Origin: Hexactinellida sp. DTS-2022
Taxonomy: Eukaryota; Porifera; Hexactinellida
NCBI GenBank assembly: GCA_028753945.1
Contig: JAPNXP010000013.1
Coordinates: 3,162,001-3,226,000 of the forward strand
DNA: 64,000 bases
Direction: 5' to 3'
The translations under genes were made by a program, and so were the position numbers. Below the pieces are notes generated by a model. It had not been told where the DNA came from, ran no database searches, and saw nothing but the letters and a program-made list of their open reading frames with translations. Positions 34,045 through 61,251 of the stretch are shown here, piece by piece. The first letter of the stretch is position 1. Each line of letters begins with the position of its first letter.

Positions 34045-34766
34045 CAAAATAACACACAACAGTACAACTGTGCTCATTATGCTGCCCTACGAAGAAATAT
34101 ACATTAGTCATGGACAGTGTCCAAAAAAACTTTGCAATCATACAAGTATACTCTTTATCCACTCATACTAAGAAATATACATTAGTCTTAGACAGTGATC
34201 AAAAGTGCCCCTCAAAAATAAAAACAGTGCTTTATATGCTGTCAGAATAAGAAATATACATTAGTCATAGAAGGTGCGCAAAAATACCTCTCTATAATAA
34301 CAACTGTGCTTATTATCGTCCCAAGCTAAGAATATATATAAAAAATGGACGGTTCCAAAAACAACCTTGCCATTATACTAGTGTACTGTTTATGCTCTCC
34401 TACTAAGAAATATACATCATTAGAGTTAGACGGTGCGCAGAAGTAACTCTCTAGAATAATTACTCTCCTTATTAGGGACTCCTACTAAGAATTATACATT
34501 TTTATTTGAAGATGCGAAAAAGTACCTCTCTATAATAACAACTGTGCTTATTATACTGCCAAGTTAAGAATATACACTAGTGTCAGACGGTGACAAAAGT
34601 ACCTCTCTATAAAACAACTGTGCTTAATATGCTGTCCGACTAAGAAAAATAGATTAGTTATAAACGGTGTCCAAAAGAAACCTTTTATATTACAAGTGTA
34701 GTCTTTATACTTTCCTACTAAGAAATATACATTTGTCTTACACGGTGATCAAAACACCCTCTAGAA

Positions 34767-35642
34767 CAGTGGTTCCCAACCTTTTCCAACAAATGTCACG
34801 ATATTACCCCCTAACATATATTTTTGCTATAATTCCTCCCCAGCACTACAATGTACTATTTTGGTATTGAAATACTGTTACTCAGGGCCGCATTAAGGGT
34901 CGTCTGGGCCCTGGTACTGTCCAAATTTCAGGGCCCCTATTTGTCTTATAGTCTGGAGGCACGCTACGCGGGCCCCTAATGGGCTCCTCAGGCCCTGGGC
35001 CCTGGTGCTGCAGCACCCATAGCCCCCCCCCCCCCCTTAATGCGGCCTTGCGGTTACTGAAAAACTAAGTGAAAATATAAATAATACTGTTAATGAGAAC
35101 AGTCAATATTATCAATACTAGGTATTTTTAATTACTCAGTGATTAAATCATTCAGTGAGACAAAGTGATCCAGAAAATTTCATAATACGAGCCCTTCGAT
35201 CTCGGTCACTTTCGACAGATCGGTGCTACACAATACAAGTTAACGGCCGCTACGCGGCCTTACTCCTCGCTAAACGATTGATTACCTTATTAGTAATATT
35301 TGTCATAGTTATATACCTATAATACCGGTTGAAAGCCAACTTCTAGGTTTATTATGAATTTTCACTAATTTGTTTACCTATTTGTGTAAATAACAACAAC
35401 AAAACTCGTATTATAAATTTATAAACGCGAAATTCGTGTTCAGGATACTTGGAAGTTAGTTTCAATCAAAATTATAAATGCGGTTTCTTTTCCCCCATCA
35501 TTTTATTACAATCCGGATTAACGCACAAACAAACACAACAATCGAGATTTAATAATATAGATATCTAAGTAGGTGGAATTCCTCCCCGAGGATGGCCAAA
35601 TTCCTCCCCAGGGAGGAATTCCTCCCAGGTTGGGAACCACTG
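34767..35642. mobile_element. Non-autonomous hAT element
   Basis: Terminal inverted repeats CAGTGGTTCCCAACC and GGTTGGGAACCACTG. They are flanked by a perfect 8-bp target-site duplication CTCTAGAA (34759-34766 and 35643-35650). It is inserted in the 77-bp array, and the array resumes in register after the duplication. It contains a second hAT element (34883-35050). No transposase frame is visible inside. Confidence 0.93.
34883..35050. mobile_element. hAT MITE nested in another hAT element
   Basis: 168-bp GC-rich element with ends CAGGGCCGCATTAAGGG and CCCTTAATGCGGCCTTG. It is flanked by 8-bp duplications CTGTTACT and CGGTTACT (7 of 8 match). It contains a poly-C run near 35,025. It lies wholly within the 34767-35642 element and is therefore the younger insertion. 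Confidence 0.85.
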
Positions 35643-38059
35643 CTCTAGAATAACAACAGTGCTTAATATGCTGTCCGACTAAGAAATATGCATTAGTCAT
35701 AGAATGCGCGCAAAGGTAAGTCTCTATAAAAACAACTGTTCTTAATATGCTGTCCGACTAAGAAATATACATTAGTCATAAACTGTGCCCAAATGAACCT
35801 TTCTATAATACAAGTGTAGTCTATATGCTCTCCTACTAAGAAATATACATTAGTCTTACACGGTGATCAAAAGTACCCTCTAAAATAACAACAGTGCTTA
35901 ATATGCTGTCCGAATAAGAAATATACATTAGTCATAGAAGGTGCGCAAATGACTCTCTATTATAACAACTGTGCTTATAAGGCTCCCAGGCTAAGAATAT
36001 ACAATAGAGTTACACGGTGCTCAGAAGTAACTCTCTAGAATAATTAATCTCCTTATTAGGCACTCCTAAAAGAAATATACATTTTTATTAGACGATGCGA
36101 AAAAGTACCTCTCGATAATAACAACTGTGCTTATTATACTGCCAAGTTAAGAAAATACACCAGTGTTAGACGTTGCACAAAAGTACCTCTCTATAAAACA
36201 ACTTTGCTTAATATGCTGTCCGACTAAGAAAAATACATTAGTAATAAACGGTGTCCAAAAGAAACCTTTTATATTACAAGTGTAGTCTTTATACTCTCCT
36301 ACTAAGAAATATACATTTGTCTTACACGGTGATCAAAACACCCTCTAGAATAACAACAGTGCTTAATATGCTGTCCGACTAAGAAATATGCATTAGTCAT
36401 TAAATGTGCGCAAAGGTAAGTCTCTATGAAAAAAACGGTGCTTAATATGCAGTCCGACTAAGAAATATGCATTAGTCATAGAATGTGCGCAAAGGTAAGT
36501 GACTATAAAAACAACTGTGCCTAATATGCAGTCCGAATAAGATATATACATTAGTCATAAACGGTGCGCAAAAGATTCTCTCTATAGTACAACTGTGCTT
36601 ATTATGCAGCCTTACGAAGAAATATACATTAGTCATGAAGGGGGCCAAATGAACCTTTCTATAATACAAGTGTAGACTATATGCTCTCCTACTAAGAAAT
36701 ATACATTAGTCTTAGACTGTGATCAAAAGTGCCCTCTAAAATAACAACTGTGCTTAATATGCAGTCCGACGAAGAAATATACATTAGTCATAGAAGGTTC
36801 GCAAAAGACTCTCACTGTAATAACAACTGTGATTATTAGGCTCCGAGGCTAAGAATATACATTACAGTTAGACGGTGCGCACAAGTACCGCTCTAGAATA
36901 ATTACTCTCCTTATTAGGCACTCCTACTAAGAATTATACATTTTTCAAAGACGATTCGCAAAGGTACCTCTCTATAATACAACTGTGCTTATTATACTGC
37001 CAAGTTAAGAATATACAATAGTTTTAGACGGTGCACAAAAGTACCTCTCTATAAAAACAACTGTGCCTAATATGCAGTCCGACTAAGAAATATACATTAG
37101 TCATAAACGGTGCGCAAAAGATTCTCTCTATAGTACAACTGTGCTCATTAAGCAGCCTTACGAAGAAATATACATTAGTCATGAAGGGGGCCAAATGAAC
37201 CTTTCTATGATACAAGTGTAGTCTTTATGCTTTCCAAATAAGAAATATACTTTAGTCTTAGACGGTGATCAAAAGTGCCCTCTAAAATAACAACAGTGCT
37301 TAATATACTGTCCGACTAAGAAATATACAATAGTCATAGAAGGTGCGCAAAAGTACCTCTCTATAATATCTTTGATTATTATGCTCCCAAGCTAAGAATA
37401 TACAATAGTCTTAGACGGTACGCAGAAGTACCTCTCTAGAATAATTACTGTGCTTATTAGGCTCTGCTACTAAGAAATATACATTAGTCATAGACGGTGC
37501 CCATAAGAACCTTTCTATAATACAAGTGTACTTTTTATGCTGCCCGATTAAGAAATATACATTAGTCATAGACAGTGCCAAAAGAACCTTTCTATAATAC
37601 TAGTGCACTTTTTATGCTGCCTACTAAGAAGTATACATTAGTCCTAAACGATGCGCAAAACTTCCTCTCTATATTAAAAATTGGCTTATTATCCTCCCAA
37701 GCTAAGAATATACATTAGGGTTATACGGTGCACAAAGGTACATCTCTATAATAAAAACTGTGAATATTATGCTGCCTTACTAAGAAATATACATTAGTCA
37801 TAGTGGGTACCCCTAAGAACATTTCTATAATACAAGTGTACTTTTTATGCTGCCGAATACGAAATATACATTAGTCATTAACGGCCCGCAAAAGTACCTC
37901 TCTACAAAAACTATGATTATTATGCCAACCGAGTAAGAATACACATTAATCTTAGACGGGCGAAAACGACACTGTATAATAACAACTCTGCTTATTATGC
38001 TGCCCTACTAAGAAATATACATTAGTCATGGACGGTGTCCAAAAGAACCCTTCTATAAT

Positions 38060-38556
38060 CAGGGTTGCCAATCCAATCCAATCGAGAATATTTTCGATTG
38101 CCGATTGCTGCATTTTTCATCGATTGGATTGTCGATTGGATTGCTTCATTTTTCACCGATTGGATTGTCGATTGGATTGCTGCATTTTTCATCGATTGGA
38201 TTATCGATTGGATTGCAATCGATGAATTTCATCGATTTTTTGAGATTGTTTGTTTTTTCAATATCTAAATAATGCCAAAATTTAAAATGCTCAATTGCTC
38301 GTCAATTAAACCCAATAATATATGTTTTAAGTTTGAATATATGATGAAACATAACTCTTTTTGATATAATACTGAGCAGTAAACGATCGAAAAAAATCGG
38401 AGAAACAATCCAAAAGAATCGATGATATTTTGGATTGTCGATTGCGATTGGATTGTCATCCGAATAATCGATTGTCCAAATTTGGATTGCCGATTGTCCA
38501 AATTTGGCTCGATTGGATTGGATTGTCGATTGGATTGGATTGGATTGGCAACCCTG
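38060..38556. mobile_element. hAT-type element rich in GATTGGATTG repeats
   Basis: 497 bp with ends CAGGGTTGCCAATCCAATCC and GGATTGGATTGGCAACCCTG, flanked by a perfect 8-bp duplication TCTATAAT (38052-38059, 38557-38564). Subterminal regions are packed with GATTGGATTG/CGATTGGATTG in both orientations, which may be transposase-binding repeats. It is inserted into the 77-bp array. Short open frames in it are only translations of the repeats. Confidence 0.93.
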
Positions 38557-39149
38557 TCTATAATACAAGTGTAGTCTTTATACTCTCCTACTAAGAAATA
38601 TAATTAGTCTTAGACGGTGATCAAAAGTGCCCCTCTATAATAACAACTGTGCTTAATGTGCAGACCGACTAAGAAATATACATTAGTCACAGAAGGTGCG
38701 CAAAAGTATCTCTCTAAACTAACAACTGTGCTTCTTAGCTCCCAAGATAAGAATATACATTAGAGTTAGACGGTGCGCAGAAGTACCTCTCTAGAATAAT
38801 TACTGTCCTTATTAGGCACTCCTACTAAGAATTATACATTTTTCTGAGACGATGCGCAAAAGTACCTCTCCATAATAACAACTGTGCTTATTATACTGCC
38901 AAGCTAAGAATATACAATAGCGTTAGACTGTGCACAAAAGAACCTCTCTATAAAAACAACTGTGCTTAATATGCTGTCCGACTAAGAAATATACATTAGT
39001 CATAAACGGTGCGCAAAAGTATCTCTCTCTAGTACAACTGTGCTTATTATGCTGCCCTTCGAAGAAATATACATTAGTCATGGACGGTGCACAAAAGAAC
39101 CTTTCTACAATACAAGTGCAGTCTTTATGCTCTCCTACTAAGAAATATA

Positions 39150-39619
39150 CCCTACCCGGACAAAAGTATTCAACCACCAAAAATTTTCCCATTGAAAATA
39201 GTACTATAGTATGTTTAACAATGGAAGATAGTGTATTCAAATTACATGAGATATTGCTATTTCGATTCAAATTCGTATTTTGCGCATTCGAATTATCAAT
39301 TCTATAAGCTTTCATTTCAATCCCTTTTTGATTTCGTTAAAAATTATCATCCTGTGCCACTTTTCCCAAATTGCCACTATGGGTGAGATGGGAACAGGTG
39401 GCACATAGTGCCATTTGATGATAATTTTCAACAGAATTAATATGTAATCAATTTAAAAGCATGTACAATAGGTAATTCGAATGCGTAGAACACGAATCTG
39501 AATTCAAAATAGCAATATGTCTTAAAGTTTTAATACATTGAACAATATTATTTGGCCTACTATAGAACTATTTTCAAAGGGAAAATGTTGGGTGGTCGAA
39601 TACATTTGTCCGGGTACTG
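39150..39619. mobile_element. Tc1/mariner (pogo-like) foldback MITE
   Basis: 470 bp bounded by TA on both sides (39148-39149, 39620-39621). The right end read inward is CAGTACCCGGACAAATGTAT; the left end is CCCTACCCGGACAAAAGTAT. The inverted similarity extends far inward (GGGAAAATGTTGG against CCACCAAAAATTTTCCC) and again in the middle (GATAATTTTCAACA), giving a long foldback. It is inserted in the 77-bp array within ATATACATTAG, so the empty site is directly readable. Confidence 0.88.
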
Positions 39620-40068
39620 TACATTAGTCTTAGACGGTGATCAAAAGTACCCTCTAAAATAACAACAGTGCTTAATATGCTGTCCGACTAAGAAATATCC
39701 ATTAGTCATGGTCGGTGCCCAAAACAACCTTGCTATCACACAAGTGTACTCTTTATGCTCTCCTACTAAGAAATATACATTAGTCTTAGACGGTGATCAA
39801 AAGTACCCCTCTATAATAACAACTGTGCTTATTATGCTCCCAAGCTAAGAATATACATTAGAGTTAGACGGTGCGAGAAGTGCCTCTCTAGAATAATTAC
39901 TGCCCTTATTAGGCACTCGTACTAAGAATTATAAATTTTTCTTAGACGATGCGCAAAAGTACCTCTCTATAATAACAACTGTGCTTATTATACTGCCAAG
40001 CTAAGAATATACATTAGAGTTAGACGGTGCACAAAAGTACCTCTCTATAAAACAACTGTGCTTAATTA

Positions 40069-49469: not shown

Positions 49470-50188
49470 AAAAAATGACAGATATCTGATAGGCAAGAAT
49501 TAGCTAAACTACAAAACAGGGTCGGGGCAATCCTCCTGTGGAGAGTGCCAAATAATAATTTAGGCTAAGGGGCCTTATGTAAATCAATGTGATCTACTGA
49601 GTCCCTAAATATGAATTCCCATTTCCCAATCGCCAATAATAAATTTCATATGTATAAAGCTAACTAATCTCGAGATTTTGACAATCTTGCCATATGTGGA
49701 AGGGTGTGAAAATCGCATAACTTACACTCCACAAATATTTTCGATAAACCAATATGACCGTTGGACTCCCAAAATATGACTTCCTATACGACAATAATAC
49801 ATTTCCTGTATCTAGCATCAGCGGATTACGGGATATCAATAAGTAACAATCTGTTTAGGGCCTAAGCTAATTTTACCGTAAAACGAAGTTTACAGTCCCT
49901 ATATTAAAGAAGTCCCTGATTTTACTAACGATCCCACAGTGGCACACCACCTGGAAATTTAAAATATTTTGAATTTGTTCTAAATTACCCAAATTTAATC
50001 TTATTTGATAGAGCATGTTTGATTTATACCGCTGTTTAAATATTTTATAAATCAATACTTGTTTGGAAGAAGAATAGAAATTCAAAGAAGCCTTGGCAAC
50101 TATTATTATCTAATGAAATTTATCTGAAGTTTTACCACAACTATTATTTGATACGTATCTAGCGATAAGCTTAAACTAAATACCTATG
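49470..50188. other. Unique AT-rich region, no gene seen
   Basis: No coding region, repeat or structure that I can support. Confidence 0.45.
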
Positions 50189-50553: not shown

Positions 50554-50872
50554 CAGTACACCCTCTCTAATCCGAACCCTCGCTAATCCGAACAGGAGAA
50601 ACCAAAATATTCTTCGACTAAATGTGGGAGAAAATCGTAAATTGCAATAGAAGTATAAAAAATAAGTCTCAGGCAAGTATTTTAAGGAGTACACTAGATG
50701 TTTAGTGCGGATTAACAAGGTTTGTATAAGTTTGGTTCGGATTATCGAGATTCTCATTTATACTAGATGCCCATATAAATTGCATTACTTCACTAATCCG
50801 AACGAATTCACTAATCGGAATAGAAACTTTTTGAATCGGAACACCTCTGTTCGGATTAGCGAGGGTGTACTG
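50554..50872. mobile_element. pogo/Tigger-like MITE directly upstream of the RAG1-like remnant
   Basis: 319 bp with ends CAGTACACCCTCTCTAATCC and a complementary right end containing GGATTAGCGAGGGTGTACTG, flanked by TA on both sides. Extra internal copies of CTAATCCGAAC occur near both ends. TA duplication and CAG...CTG ends are typical of pogo/Tigger Tc1-mariner elements. Confidence 0.88.
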
Positions 50873-50897
50873 TAATACGTTCTCACTTTGATACTAA

Positions 50898-51845
50898 ATG
50901 GCTAAGATATTAATCGGAGCAGGAGGCGCGAGTTGTCAACTGTGTACACTGTACAGCATAGTTTGACCAAATACACGACATTGGTTTTATTAAAGACGGT
51001 TTCGCCATTAATAGGAAAATACAGATGCTAGAACATTGTTTGAAGAGGTAAATGAAGATGACTTTCTCTCTCTACCAACTAGCGAGATATTTAATTTGAC
51101 CCACCAACCCATATCAGAGAAATATATTATCTCCTCATTACCTCTTCATGCTTACTTGAGAACGGTTAGTTGGTTTTAAAAACTAGTACCTCATCTACAT
51201 GCGAGTTTAATTACTAAATGGTCACCCAGTTCATCAAAAGTCTTAGGCGCGAAGAAATTCATTACGAGTCTGATTCAAGAGAAGCTGAACATTGTCATCG
51301 ATATGTCATCTGTTCAGGGGGACATCTACCACCGAAACATATTTCGGCGATGTCTCAAGCGCGTCGAAAGGAAGACTTCCTTTACTGGGTTTTATCTGTA
51401 GTTCCATCTCAGATTCATCCAACTGTCACACTAATTTATAATTTAGGAGCAATCTTGAGGATATATAACAGCAGCCGGACAGTGGATACTGAAAAACATG
51501 ATGAATTATGCAAGGACAGATGAATATATTTTAACTAATTTCCCATGGATACACATAACTCCTAGTTTACACAAGCTCTTGGCCCATGCACTTCAAATAA
51601 TTTCTGAGTATAATGAAGGATTTGGATTGGAAGAATTATCTGTAGAGGGGATCGAAGCCTGTAATAAGCTGATTAGAAGATATCGCGAGAGGCTATCTCG
51701 AAAATTCAGCATTGAGCACAACATCAAAGATGTCTTCGTAAGACGCATCTCTCAAAGCGATCCTATTCTGAATTTATTCCGAACTGATGGGAAAAAATAC
51801 TTGAAAACTGATGTCAGAACACATGAGCTATCAAGATTCTCTTGA
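50898..51845 (+). pseudogene. RAG1-like (RAG1/Transib family) C-terminal core, broken
   Basis: Family protein: the DDE recombinase/transposase subunit that pairs and cuts DNA at recombination signals. Pieces in order: 50898-about 50960 (GAGGASCQLC, the CxxC zinc pair); about 50971-51025 in another frame (IHDIGFIKDGFAINRK); 51030-about 51375 with an in-frame stop at 51177 (PLHAYLRTVSWF, then LVPHLHASL, then RNIFRRCLKRVERK); about 51372-51508 (EDFLYWVLSVVPS); and 51509-51842, with SLHKLLAH (two zinc His ligands), EGIEACNKLIRRYR (position of the third catalytic Glu) and SQSDPIL. The order matches mouse RAG1 from about Cys727 to past Glu962. At least four frameshifts and a stop show it is dead. 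AATAAA follows at 51871. The first two catalytic Asp positions are not present. Transib transposase is the alternative, but HKxLAH and EGxE-xxNKLxRRxR favour RAG1-like. Confidence 0.78.
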
Positions 51846-52213
51846 ATTTTCATTAATTGTTGAATTAAACAAATAAAACGATAATTTCATGATAACGAAT
51901 TATGCTTTATTGATGAGTGAACGATTAGAATGGATGAAACAATGATCATGCACTAAATAGTATTGTATAATATACTGTAACGACTCGATACATGTCCACT
52001 TCTATAGTATTAGTCTACATCATGCTATGTCATGTCACAAGGTTTACCATAGCGTAGTTATTTTATAATAGTTCAGCTGAAAGCCCTTTCCCAAAGGTAG
52101 ACTATTAAATAAAACAGGCAGTAACTAAGTTCAAAATTCAAGATATAGAGATATTTAACACAGTAAAGACTAATCTACTACATCTATACAATTAAACACA
52201 AGGCTGGGTGTAT
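51846..52213. other. 3' flank of the RAG1-like remnant
   Basis: AT-rich sequence with a possible polyadenylation signal AATAAA at 51871. No RAG2-like sequence or terminal inverted repeat recognised. Confidence 0.45.
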
Positions 52214-52436
52214 CACTTAATCGAATAATTCGCGCCCTCTAAGAGATAAAATCTGAAAATTTAATAGAACATGTACATTAATGATGCGGACACGTTGGTC
52301 ACACCAGATTACCAATATGCTAACTCATTATCGCGTGATGACGTAATCACTAAAATTTCACATTTTTAAATTTGACTATTTAGGCCAGGGAATGAAAGGT
52401 TCACGAACGGACAGAATTGACGCAATTCAGTTCATC

Positions 52437-52560
52437 TTAAGCAATTACGTGTATACTTTTTCTGTAGTGACTAATCGGAATTTTTAGAATTCGAGATATT
52501 TATTGAAAATTCCGATTAGTCACTACAAAAAAAATTCAAAGTATACACGTAATTGCTTAA
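52437..52560. repeat. Hairpin with about 50-bp arms
   Basis: Left arm TTAAGCAATTACGTGTATAC then TGTAGTGACTAATCGGAATT. Right arm AATTCCGATTAGTCACTACA then GTATACACGTAATTGCTTAA. The loop is short (about 20 bp) and there is a small A-tract difference between the arms. Confidence 0.85.
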
Positions 52561-52763
52561 AGTTCTCTGTCGCCCCCGTGCTACTAGTTAGTACTAACTA
52601 TATAGGCATTAACATCGCATTGATAACTACCCAAATTTCTCAAGTAACTTTGTTTATAGTAAAATTTCAATTAATCTTAAAATAAATGATATGTCATTTA
52701 GTTCCATATTCACATATCTGACTGTAACTCGGAATGTATATGAGCTAGAGAGTCAAACTTTGT

Positions 52764-52930
52764 TTTAAGGCTAAGTTCCTTCTGGAATTGGAAAAGCTAA
52801 TTATCTTCCTTAGTTTGTATTCTATTTACCCTCTTTATTATCTATCATTTAAAACATAAATAGGGTAAATAGAATACAAACTAAGGAAGATAATTAGCTT
52901 TTCCAATTCCAGAAGGAACTTAGCCTTAAA
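52764..52930. repeat. Perfect hairpin with 69-bp arms
   Basis: The left arm begins TTTAAGGCTAAGTTCCTTCT and ends GTATTCTATTTACCCT. The right arm is its exact reverse complement as far as I can check by eye, with a loop of about 29 bp. It is nested inside the 52386-53348 hAT element. Perfect arms suggest a very recent origin or an active palindromic element. Confidence 0.88.
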
Positions 52931-53476
52931 TTGACGCACGTTCAGTTCGTTCAAGTGCACCTCCTAACTTCAGCTCCACCAGCGTTCGTTCAGTTCGTTC
53001 ACGGGCTAACCCGCGTTCGTTCAATTCGTTCAATTCGTTTAGTTCAGTTCGTTCAGTGTACAGTGAGTGGGTCGAACTATTCAGTTTATAATAGACTGTT
53101 CGATCCTCCAAGCTGTTATTGAAGTTCAGGCTAAGAAGCTAGAATCTAAGCTAAGAGACAGGAGTCCACTAGGGATGTCCGGAATTAGCACTTTTGCAAT
53201 AATGATCTATATTTATAATTATCTTTATTCAGTTTTGTTCGTTCAATTGCCTTTCGGAAATCGTTGGCGTTCGTTCACCGTGAATCCCTTAAAAGCCCTA
53301 CGTTCAGTTCAAGTTCAATAAGTTCGTTCGTGAACCTTTCATTCCCTGATTTAGGCCTATTTAAGCTTTATAATCAATGTAGAAGTATATAAACCACACA
53401 CCAACCGCGAAGCGGTTGGTGTGTGGTTGTGTTCTGCCGCGAAGCGACCAAGCAAGCGAGGCGCGCTAGTAATAAC

Positions 53477-54081
53477 TGATCATAATTTTCACACATGAAT
53501 TCAAAGAAAACTTTTGGTCACACCAATCGATTCCTTTGGGTTGGTTTCCTATAGGTCAATAATACAGTTTGTTGGGCTATCTGTGATCCTAATGCCTACT
53601 TGCAGATTCTGGCTATTTCGTGCCACTGGATACTAATTGTGCTAGTGTGTAATTTCAATCTGAATTAATCAAAAATTTTCTTATGCAAATCAGAATTTAC
53701 ACCAATTAAAATGAATCCAATAGTTGCTAATAAATTTCGAACATTTGCATATTACAGGCAGTCACTATTAAAACAAATATCTAACAAGTGCGAAATAGAT
53801 GTGATTATTATGTCAACTACAAGGTACTAATTAGTCAACTACACATATCAGTTAAAATGTCTCCAAATACTTTTTGAAGCATTAGTTGTCCACAGTTAGT
53901 CGGCTCAATTGGCATGACATCCTCGAAATATTGGATCTCCGAATAAATAAAGTTTATTTTATAATACTCAATTTTAGTTACAATTTGAGTGTAAAATGTT
54001 ATTTGTTATTTCAAACGTTACATAACGCTTCCAATGAGGGTGGTTAATCGATATGTGACTCTTTCTACTAATATCAAATGA
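53477..54081. other. Unique AT-rich spacer
   Basis: No gene or element recognised. Confidence 0.45.
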
Positions 54082-59897: not shown

Positions 59898-61235
59898 TTA
59901 CTTTGGATTCTGGCGAATATGCTGTGAGTAACTGTTATGAGTAACATAGCTATTGGTAGGATCCTGGTGATTGTATGGCTGTTGGCCGTGTATAAAGGGG
60001 GGCATATGGTGAGGAATATTATGATTCAATTGAGGCAATTTCTGAACGTGTTCAGTTGAATTTGTTTTGGTTAGTGCACATAGAGCAGGTGGGTGTGAAA
60101 TTCTAAGGCGTTTCGGGTTAGGTCCTTCACCACCTCTGTGGTTTTGATCATCTTTGTGTCCTTCATCATCAGTTATGTACTCACGCTTTGGATACTGAAT
60201 GTTACAATCTGTGAATACGTTATCATTAGGCTTAGGTTCCTCTAAAAAGTATTCGTGTTTCAAGGCTTGTTCCGAGGTAAATCGTTTTGTAGGATCCATC
60301 ATTAAGAATTTTGTAAGGAGTTGAAATACTTTAGATTCTGCTTTTATTTTGTGTTTGTCCATGTATTTCTGCAAACTGTTACTGGAATAACATTCACCTT
60401 TAAAGTCACGCTGAACAGTATTGTACTCTGGCATCTTAATTATATCATCCCATTCTCCAGCCTGTGGGTAACCCATCACTTGAAATATCCTATTCAACTG
60501 ATCATGGTGGTATGGGCTTGATGTGTCTATCTCTTCATGCTTACAATAGAAGATTGGCTCATAAGTGAGTAGTTCAGTGAAGATACAACCTATTGCCCAT
60601 ATATCAATCGCCTTAGTGTAGTGTTTCGCTCCTAGAAGAAGTTCAGGAGCCCTGTACCAAGAAGTCACTACTACAGGGTCCTGTTCTGCTAGAGGTTTCA
60701 GTGGGGAGTAAAAAAGCCTTGCAAATCCCATATCTGCTATTTTGACTCTTCCATGCTCGTTTCCTTCACCCATTACTAGGATATTGGCTGGCTTTAGATC
60801 TCTATGCAACACCCAGTTAGTGTGAAGATATGAAATGCCGTTCAGGAGCTGGTATAGTAGAGACTTAACCATCACGTCAGGGATTCTCTTTGGTTTAGAA
60901 GTTCGATGGTATTTTATAATGTGCCACAAATCATGTTCTGCAAAATCAAAAAGCAGCCAAACCTTTCTCTCGTGAAGGAATACCCTTTGTAAGCTAATCA
61001 CATTGATATGACGTAATTCACGAAGCAGTGCTATTTCTCTACAAGCAGACATTGATAATCCTTTACCCTCAATGTATTTTAATGCAAACTCAACAGTATT
61101 CTGGTAAGCAGTCTTCAGTTTAGCCTTGTAAACAATACCGTATGTTCCACGACCGATCTTTCTTCCTTCAAATTCAAACATGTCTTCCACTTTGATGCGC
61201 TTTTTTTCATGTTTAGCTTTGAACTCAATGTCCAT
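59898..61235 (-). CDS. CDK8: Cyclin-dependent kinase 8 (CDK8/19), intronless coding region
   Basis: Mediator kinase-module Ser/Thr kinase. With cyclin C it phosphorylates RNA polymerase II and transcription factors in the nucleus. The 445-residue frame covers the whole protein (human CDK8 464): glycine loop GRGTYG at 28-33, ATP lysine in ALK (K53), the CDK8-specific SMSACRE helix at 61-67, EHDLWHII at 100-107, catalytic HRDLKPAN (D146), DMG metal-binding motif (D168-G170), WYRAPE at 193-198 and [10 protein letters not shown]. As in CDK8, the activation segment ([15 protein letters not shown]) lacks the usual phospho-Thr. Human CDK8 has VVTFWYRAPE; here the Phe is Ser (S192). The tail (about 350-445) is His/Pro/Asn-rich and diverged. 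The whole coding region is one exon. CACTTTCTAG just upstream of the ATG could be the acceptor of a 5'-UTR intron. I see no poly-A tract downstream to prove retroposition. Confidence 0.95.
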
Positions 61236-61251
61236 TCTATTCTACCTAGAA
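61236..61251 (-). promoter_or_regulatory. Possible splice acceptor upstream of CDK8 start
   Basis: On the minus strand the sequence before the start reads TGCACACACTTTCTAG, then GTAGAATAGAATG. The pyrimidine-rich run ending in TAG fits a 3' splice site, which would put a 5'-UTR intron just upstream. No donor is identified. Confidence 0.3.

Follow-up and report, generated by a model that had tools for sequence, protein, structure and literature searches.

The window, i.e. the 64-kb stretch of hexactinellid DNA analysed here, carries a decayed coding sequence that recalls RAG1. The Transib family gave rise to RAG1, the vertebrate antibody-gene recombinase. The question is whether this locus is what remains of a RAG1-like recombinase gene, as the original prediction had it, or of a transposon. 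It is very probably a dead DNA transposon of the Transib superfamily. The original observation holds up, and the label needs shifting by one branch: the copy is a dead Transib, not a RAG1L gene.

Coding remnant of the fossil transposase

Positions are those of the window. Relatives from the same genome are designated by locus (L009, L017, etc.). ZnC2, zinc-binding cysteine pair; ZnH2, zinc-binding histidine pair. HzTransib, Transib of Helicoverpa zea (PDB 6pqn), the closest solved relative; ProtoRAG, element of amphioxus (PDB 6b40). The basis of each feature is given in brackets.

50,863-51,842, + strand: decayed transposase, C-terminal half (starting at ~aa 374 and reaching almost to the end of a protein of ~720 aa), with five core frameshifts and in-frame stops (tblastn, frameshift-aware alignment)
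50,890-50,892, + strand: Asp codon in RSHFD (RS-x-FD), counterpart of the second catalytic Asp (alignment)
50,922-50,945, + strand: GGASCQLC piece (translation)
50,934-50,945, + strand: CQLC, ZnC2 (translation, alignment to relatives)
51,021-51,140, + strand: stretch between ZnC2 and ZnH2 (alpha11-12 equivalent), missing from the HzTransib chain (alignment)
51,141-51,161, + strand: PLHAYLR piece (translation)
51,564-51,587, + strand: SLHKLLAH, ZnH2 (translation, 128-aa piece against the PDB)
51,642-51,686, + strand: VEGIEACNKLIRRYR piece, bearing the third-Glu region (translation)
51,645-51,647, + strand: Glu codon of VEGIEACNK, counterpart of the third catalytic Glu (SEG of RAG1) (alignment)

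All pieces named in the original prediction, including the zinc and catalytic motifs, are present; RNIFRRCL and EDFLYWVLSVVPS are among those read in the translation. The predicted start (50,898) has to be moved. Coding homology begins upstream, at ~50,863, and takes in the second catalytic Asp (RSHFD), which corresponds to D385 of L009 and aligns with the Asp of GYDEKL in mouse RAG1. The catalytic role of this Asp (50,890-50,892) and of the Glu at 51,645-51,647 is assumed from RAG1.

The frameshift-aware search that had been proposed aligns the fossil with L017 at 58% identity (191 of 330 aligned codons) and a score of 826, against 50-55 for five mononucleotide shuffles of the region. The predicted decay (frameshifts and a stop) is confirmed in this alignment. 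Core frameshifts lie near 50,896, 50,949, 51,016, 51,357 and 51,515, with two more in the tail; in-frame stops lie at 50,959, 51,177 and 51,874, the last one in the tail. Alignment to L009 places ten shifts instead, so that the exact number of frameshifts depends on the reference. In tblastn searches of the window with relatives from the same genome, the fossil was matched down to E=2e-68. The N-terminal half of the transposase (~aa 1-350) was not found within the window by tblastn with ten relatives as queries, and the first catalytic Asp is lacking along with it. With these missing parts, the frameshifts, the stops and at least two further transposon insertions, the fossil cannot make transposase.

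One of the five fossil pieces, of 128 aa (51,459-51,842), matches Pfam RAG1 (E=1.3e-4); its 20.7 bits fall below the curated cut-off of 25 bits. The other four have no RAG1 match in Pfam. These Pfam results are what a chance similarity, or an unrelated DDE family, would have in its favour. This explanation is of practically negligible probability, given the alignment score relative to shuffles, the four of seven relatives that exceed the curated RAG1 cut-off, and the fact that no other Pfam family scores as well as RAG1 with the fossil pieces or the relatives. Against the PDB, the 128-aa piece matches HzTransib (1e-9) better than ProtoRAG RAG1L (4.2e-5) and RAG1 (0.04).

Boundaries of the fossil element and other contents of the window

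49,935-49,961, + strand: candidate 5' terminal repeat, in which an 11-bp spacer separates a CACAGTG heptamer from a GGAAATTTA block (pattern, homology)
50,554-50,872, no strand: 319-bp inverted-repeat insertion, CAGTACACCC...GGGTGTACTG, with a flanking TA on each side, located where the coding remnant is broken at its 5' end (by eye)
52,030-52,166, + strand: remnant of the 3' untranslated region of the element (72% identity to the segment of L025 that follows the coding sequence and precedes the 3' end)
52,386-53,348, no strand: inverted-repeat insertion with CAGGGAATGAAAGG termini and an 8-bp duplication (ATTTAGGC), lodged in the 3' part of the fossil (by eye)
53,480-53,630, + strand: 3' end of the element, with a decayed heptamer separated by a 20-bp spacer from a GCAAGTAGG block (homology to the 3' ends of relatives)

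The last ~150 bp of the relatives match 53,480-53,628, so the fossil element ends at ~53,630. The 3' ends of L002/L025, L003/L026, L004, L005, L017, L018, L019, L023 and L027 match over 126-151 bp at 62-73% identity. The CACAGTG end at 49,935 would be the fossil's own 5' end. It has GCAC after the heptamer, a subfamily type shared with the fossil 3' end, and matches the unpaired end at L012:1582 with 91% identity over 34 bp. Between this end and 50,863 no coding match was found, and its flanking 5 bp have no clear match to the other side. A target-site duplication GATCC versus TACTA (or GATAC, assuming the loss of two bases) was considered and not accepted. The two insertions are presumably pogo/Tigger-like (50,554-50,872) and hAT-like (52,386-53,348); neither belongs to the Transib.

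Nearly half of the window (1-30,368) is a satellite array of ~454 copies of a 68-bp unit. A diverged 78-bp tandem repeat occurs in blocks at 34,064-40,064. A single-exon open frame of 447 aa (59,898-61,241, - strand) reads like a CDK8/19-type protein kinase, an assignment that is presumed.

Relatives across the genome

A genome search with the 128-aa fossil piece gave 393 first-look candidates, and all 150 that were scored match; Transib coding matches in the 112-Mb genome thus number at least 150. A search of the genome for intact copies had been suggested; an open frame of at least 500 aa is found in 22 of the 150 scored matches and one of at least 700 aa in 13. The six pairs of copies that were compared are 98.95-99.8% identical and lie at different sites.

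Twenty loci, selected mostly for long frames, were fetched. Terminal repeats had also been proposed as a target, and both ends were located in 13 of these 20 loci (for the fossil itself, the 3' end and the candidate 5' end described above). Ends were located via a CACAGTG search, which in part builds the heptamer into its own count; a drop in homology between copies independently marks the ends within a few bases in L010, L011, L012, L014, L019 and L023. The 5-bp target-site duplication played no part in locating ends. It is exact in 11 of the 13 mapped elements (L017, four of five bp; L023, none at this phase). Five further two-ended elements (L029, L030, L031, L033, L036) were inspected by eye, and the duplication is exact in four; L029 has no matching one. 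The 13 mapped elements are 3.0-3.8 kb long and carry one long gene each. In L028:1300-5077, the transposase gene is inverted relative to the element ends, which have a CATTA duplication on both sides.

The locus could also be a host-domesticated gene derived from RAG1 or Transib, or a pseudogene of one; a single such locus in 64 kb and the partly retained catalytic and zinc motifs would fit. This is very improbable in view of the at least 150 dispersed coding matches, the near-identical copies and the ends with 5-bp duplications, and of the window copy itself, which has frameshifts, stops and a 3' end shared with the relatives. What the sequences of the relatives show is homology, motifs, ends, duplications and near-identical copies at different sites.

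Transposase of the relatives and its phylogenetic position

A profile built from ten relatives matches HzTransib at 1.2e-45, ProtoRAG RAG1L at 9e-20 and RAG1 at 3e-16 or weaker. The same ranking is obtained with the fossil piece and with L010. HzTransib is the sole Transib reference in the rankings and in the trees, where it lies on a very long branch. All ten relatives match Pfam RAG1 at E<=0.01. The Transib flavour noticed originally is thus borne out by profile scores. Of the label 'RAG1-like recombinase gene', the membership in the RAG1/Transib superfamily and the decay hold; the assignment to RAG1 or RAG1L does not, as HzTransib is clearly the closest match among the solved chains.

The relatives share with HzTransib the same catalytic and zinc motifs, the SEE signature and a GTxxxGN stretch; the latter is missing from RAG1L and RAG1. 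Unlike HzTransib, whose solved chain has 13 aa at this place (alignment, not structure), they have a stretch of ~48 aa between ZnC2 and ZnH2 (alpha11-12), as do RAG1 and RAG1L. It is readable in the fossil too. The match of the HzTransib chain to the profile of the relatives starts at position 170 and does not cover the N-terminal region. Searched alone, the N-terminal segment has the RAG1 nonamer-binding domain (3gna) as its top match (E=2.8e-5, 53 residues, ungapped), and the first 16 of 20 matches are RAG1 chains.

Two trees were built, as had been proposed. Both separate the genome copies and HzTransib from RAG1L and RAG1 (support 100/100; the program warns of long branches). The branch that separates the genome copies from the three references has support of 94/96 in the first tree and 74/92 in the second. 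The fossil groups with L025 in the first tree (94/91). The second tree keeps the split; the deep forks inside it are open.

A rival reading has the fossil as a RAGL (RAG1L-RAG2L) transposon that lost its RAG2L partner. ProtoRAG RAG1L is the second-best solved match, and the relatives have in common with RAG1L the alpha11-12 stretch, a nonamer-binding-domain homologue and a CCGHC-type tail (intact in six of 16 copies). The reading is nevertheless very unlikely: HzTransib is matched far better, GTxxxGN is shared with it, and the transposase does not group with RAG1L/RAG1 in either tree. Among the frames of at least 200 aa listed (up to three per locus), none is a second frame within any of the 13 mapped elements, although a gene split by introns could escape notice. 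The RAG2-like neighbour for which a search had been suggested was not found: the Pfam RAG2 family has no match across the genome, a weak result since the control likewise matched nowhere. The Transib reading is therefore retained for the window copy.

Asymmetric RSS-like ends

The pattern CACAGTGG-N{2,26}-GAANTAGG occurs 635 times in the genome (302 forward, 333 reverse); the reversed-pattern control occurs once. The spacer N between heptamer and block is distributed as follows.

9-12 bp: 242 ends
13-18 bp: 7 ends
19-22 bp: 383 ends
other: 3 ends

Spacers are mostly of 11 and 20-21 bp. Among the first 100 matches listed, 20 of the 21 close convergent pairs (<6 kb) consist of one short and one long end; the exceptional pair is long/long, and its sequences come from two different families. 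Random draws of ends give a mean of 10 unlike pairs out of 21 and a maximum of 19 in 100,000 draws, which is no strict probability because the copies are related.

The best block is found at 10-11 and 20 bp in 11 of the 13 mapped elements; L018 and L021, in which the block has diverged, do not fit. The spacers of L031 are ~7 and 21 bp by eye. The short end lies on the 5' side of the transposase gene in mapped elements, except L028. The latter was considered as an exception to the short-5'/long-3' order and rejected as such: its gene is inverted, and its ends are still one short and one long. An A-rich AAAAAATC is found roughly 20-22 bp in, only at some ends (5' ends where mapped); CACAGTGG-N{4,32}-AAAAAATC occurs 24 times versus 2 in the control, with a total length of 35-37 bp.

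Ten of the 21 close convergent pairs, among the matches listed, span just 974-1,323 bp. These are presumably non-autonomous derivatives.

As far as their sequence goes, the ends of the relatives are similar to the signals cut by RAG1. The single ~720-aa transposase of the relatives, of DDE/RNase-H-like type, would bind both transposon ends and cut next to the CAC of the CACAGTG heptamer, probably by nick-and-hairpin cleavage as in RAG1, HzTransib and ProtoRAG. Pasting of the element at a new site would then produce a 5-bp duplication. The two-part signal may cause one short-spacer end to be synapsed with one long-spacer end, and the nonamer-binding-domain homologue perhaps reads the inner part of this signal.

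CTT1 zinc knuckle

The CTT1 tail is critical for amphioxus ProtoRAG. The state of this CCGHC tail was assessed in 16 copies of the genome.

Cx2Cx3GHxnC intact, 6 of 16: L010, L012, L015, L020, L021, L034
knuckle eroded, 2 of 16: L031 (SH for GH), L035 (SN for GH)
not found, 8 of 16: L009, L017, L018, L019, L022, L029, L032, L036

The absence in L022 is uninformative because its tail passes into a repeat that the window contains as well. L028, outside the 16-copy count, shows the Cx2Cx3GHxnC motif by eye. In L031 and L035, the zinc motif looks as if it were decaying within otherwise long open frames. The fossil lineage is without CTT1: L009, L017 and, as far as it is readable, the fossil retain the end of the tail and not the knuckle. 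An early impression that CTT1 is linked to TTA after the heptamer was dropped because the association tracks the tree and becomes blurred in later families.

In the second tree, copies with intact CTT1 fall into two supported groups, and L029/L032, which lack it, are sister to the eroded L031/L035, next to the intact L010/L012. Given the supported branches of this tree, the CTT1-less label must have changed at least twice; if the tail is ancestral, these changes are two losses. Apparently new is that CTT1 is eroded or lost in part of the assemblage, fossil lineage included, while the asymmetric ends persist. No report of CTT1 loss with kept asymmetric ends was found in the literature searched (supplements and most subscription papers lay outside it).

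Comparison with known systems

Subgroup I Transibs have asymmetric ends, an alpha11-12 stretch and CTT1, and were suggested to be intermediates (Tao et al. 2022, PMC9435367). A nonamer-binding-domain equivalent is present in both Transib subgroups (PMC9435367). HzTransib (Hze in the alignments of PMC9435367) is read here as belonging to subgroup II. The elements described here are like Subgroup I Transibs in their two-part asymmetric ends, alpha11-12 stretch, nonamer-binding-domain equivalent and single transposase gene, and in having CTT1 in some families. Because of this resemblance of the relatives to published Subgroup I Transibs (PMC9435367), their kind is already known. They differ from Subgroup I as published in that CTT1 is intact in only part of the copies and absent from the fossil lineage, and in their spacers of mostly 11 and 20-21 bp. 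The original proposal that the copy may sit between the two groups has something in its favour: the relatives bear traits of the Subgroup I Transibs, which are called intermediates in PMC9435367.

A 12/23-type asymmetry is reported for a few insect Transibs (PMC8355894). The ends of ProtoRAG are reported to be of 27/31 bp, and those of most Transibs, HzTransib included, to be symmetric (PMC8289069). The DDE core, the zinc domain, the CAC-starting ends, the 5-bp target-site duplications and the two-part asymmetric ends are shared with ProtoRAG. In some relatives a CCGHC-type tail is also shared with ProtoRAG RAG1L; this tail of invertebrate RAG1L is described in PMC7204232. Unlike the elements found here, which have CACAGTG, spacers of ~11 and 20-21 bp and no RAG2L found, ProtoRAG has RAG2L and a CACTATG heptamer.

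The likeness to the vertebrate system concerns both protein and DNA. The transposase has the nonamer-binding-domain homology to RAG1 given above. The heptamer CACAGTG is identical to the RSS consensus given in PMC8289069, and the signal is in two parts with two spacer classes. Vertebrate RSS differ in having spacers of 12/23 and an A-rich nonamer; here the spacers of ~11 and 20-21 bp lead to GGAARTAGG, and the A-rich AAAAAATC occurs at only some ends.

Significance

The fossil itself is ordinary transposon debris and says nothing directly about how antibody genes evolved; it is the better-kept relatives that are of interest. Hundreds of RSS-like asymmetric ends, several apparently recent full-length families and a graded loss of the tail constitute a natural test set for which part of the protein reads which part of the DNA. 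The origin of the 12/23 rule in V(D)J recombination is an open question. Tentatively, and with more doubt than confidence, a RAG2-free Transib lineage may already use an RSS-like signal. In this signal, an exact CACAGTG would be joined by a second block, set at either of two fixed spacers that differ by ~9-10 bp, and nearly every element would have one end of each class. The signal would be read by a transposase whose nonamer-binding domain is of RAG1 type, CTT1 having been lost at least two times and the asymmetry kept. If this is true, a 12/23-like pairing rule would predate RAG2 and would depend on neither RAG2 nor CTT1.
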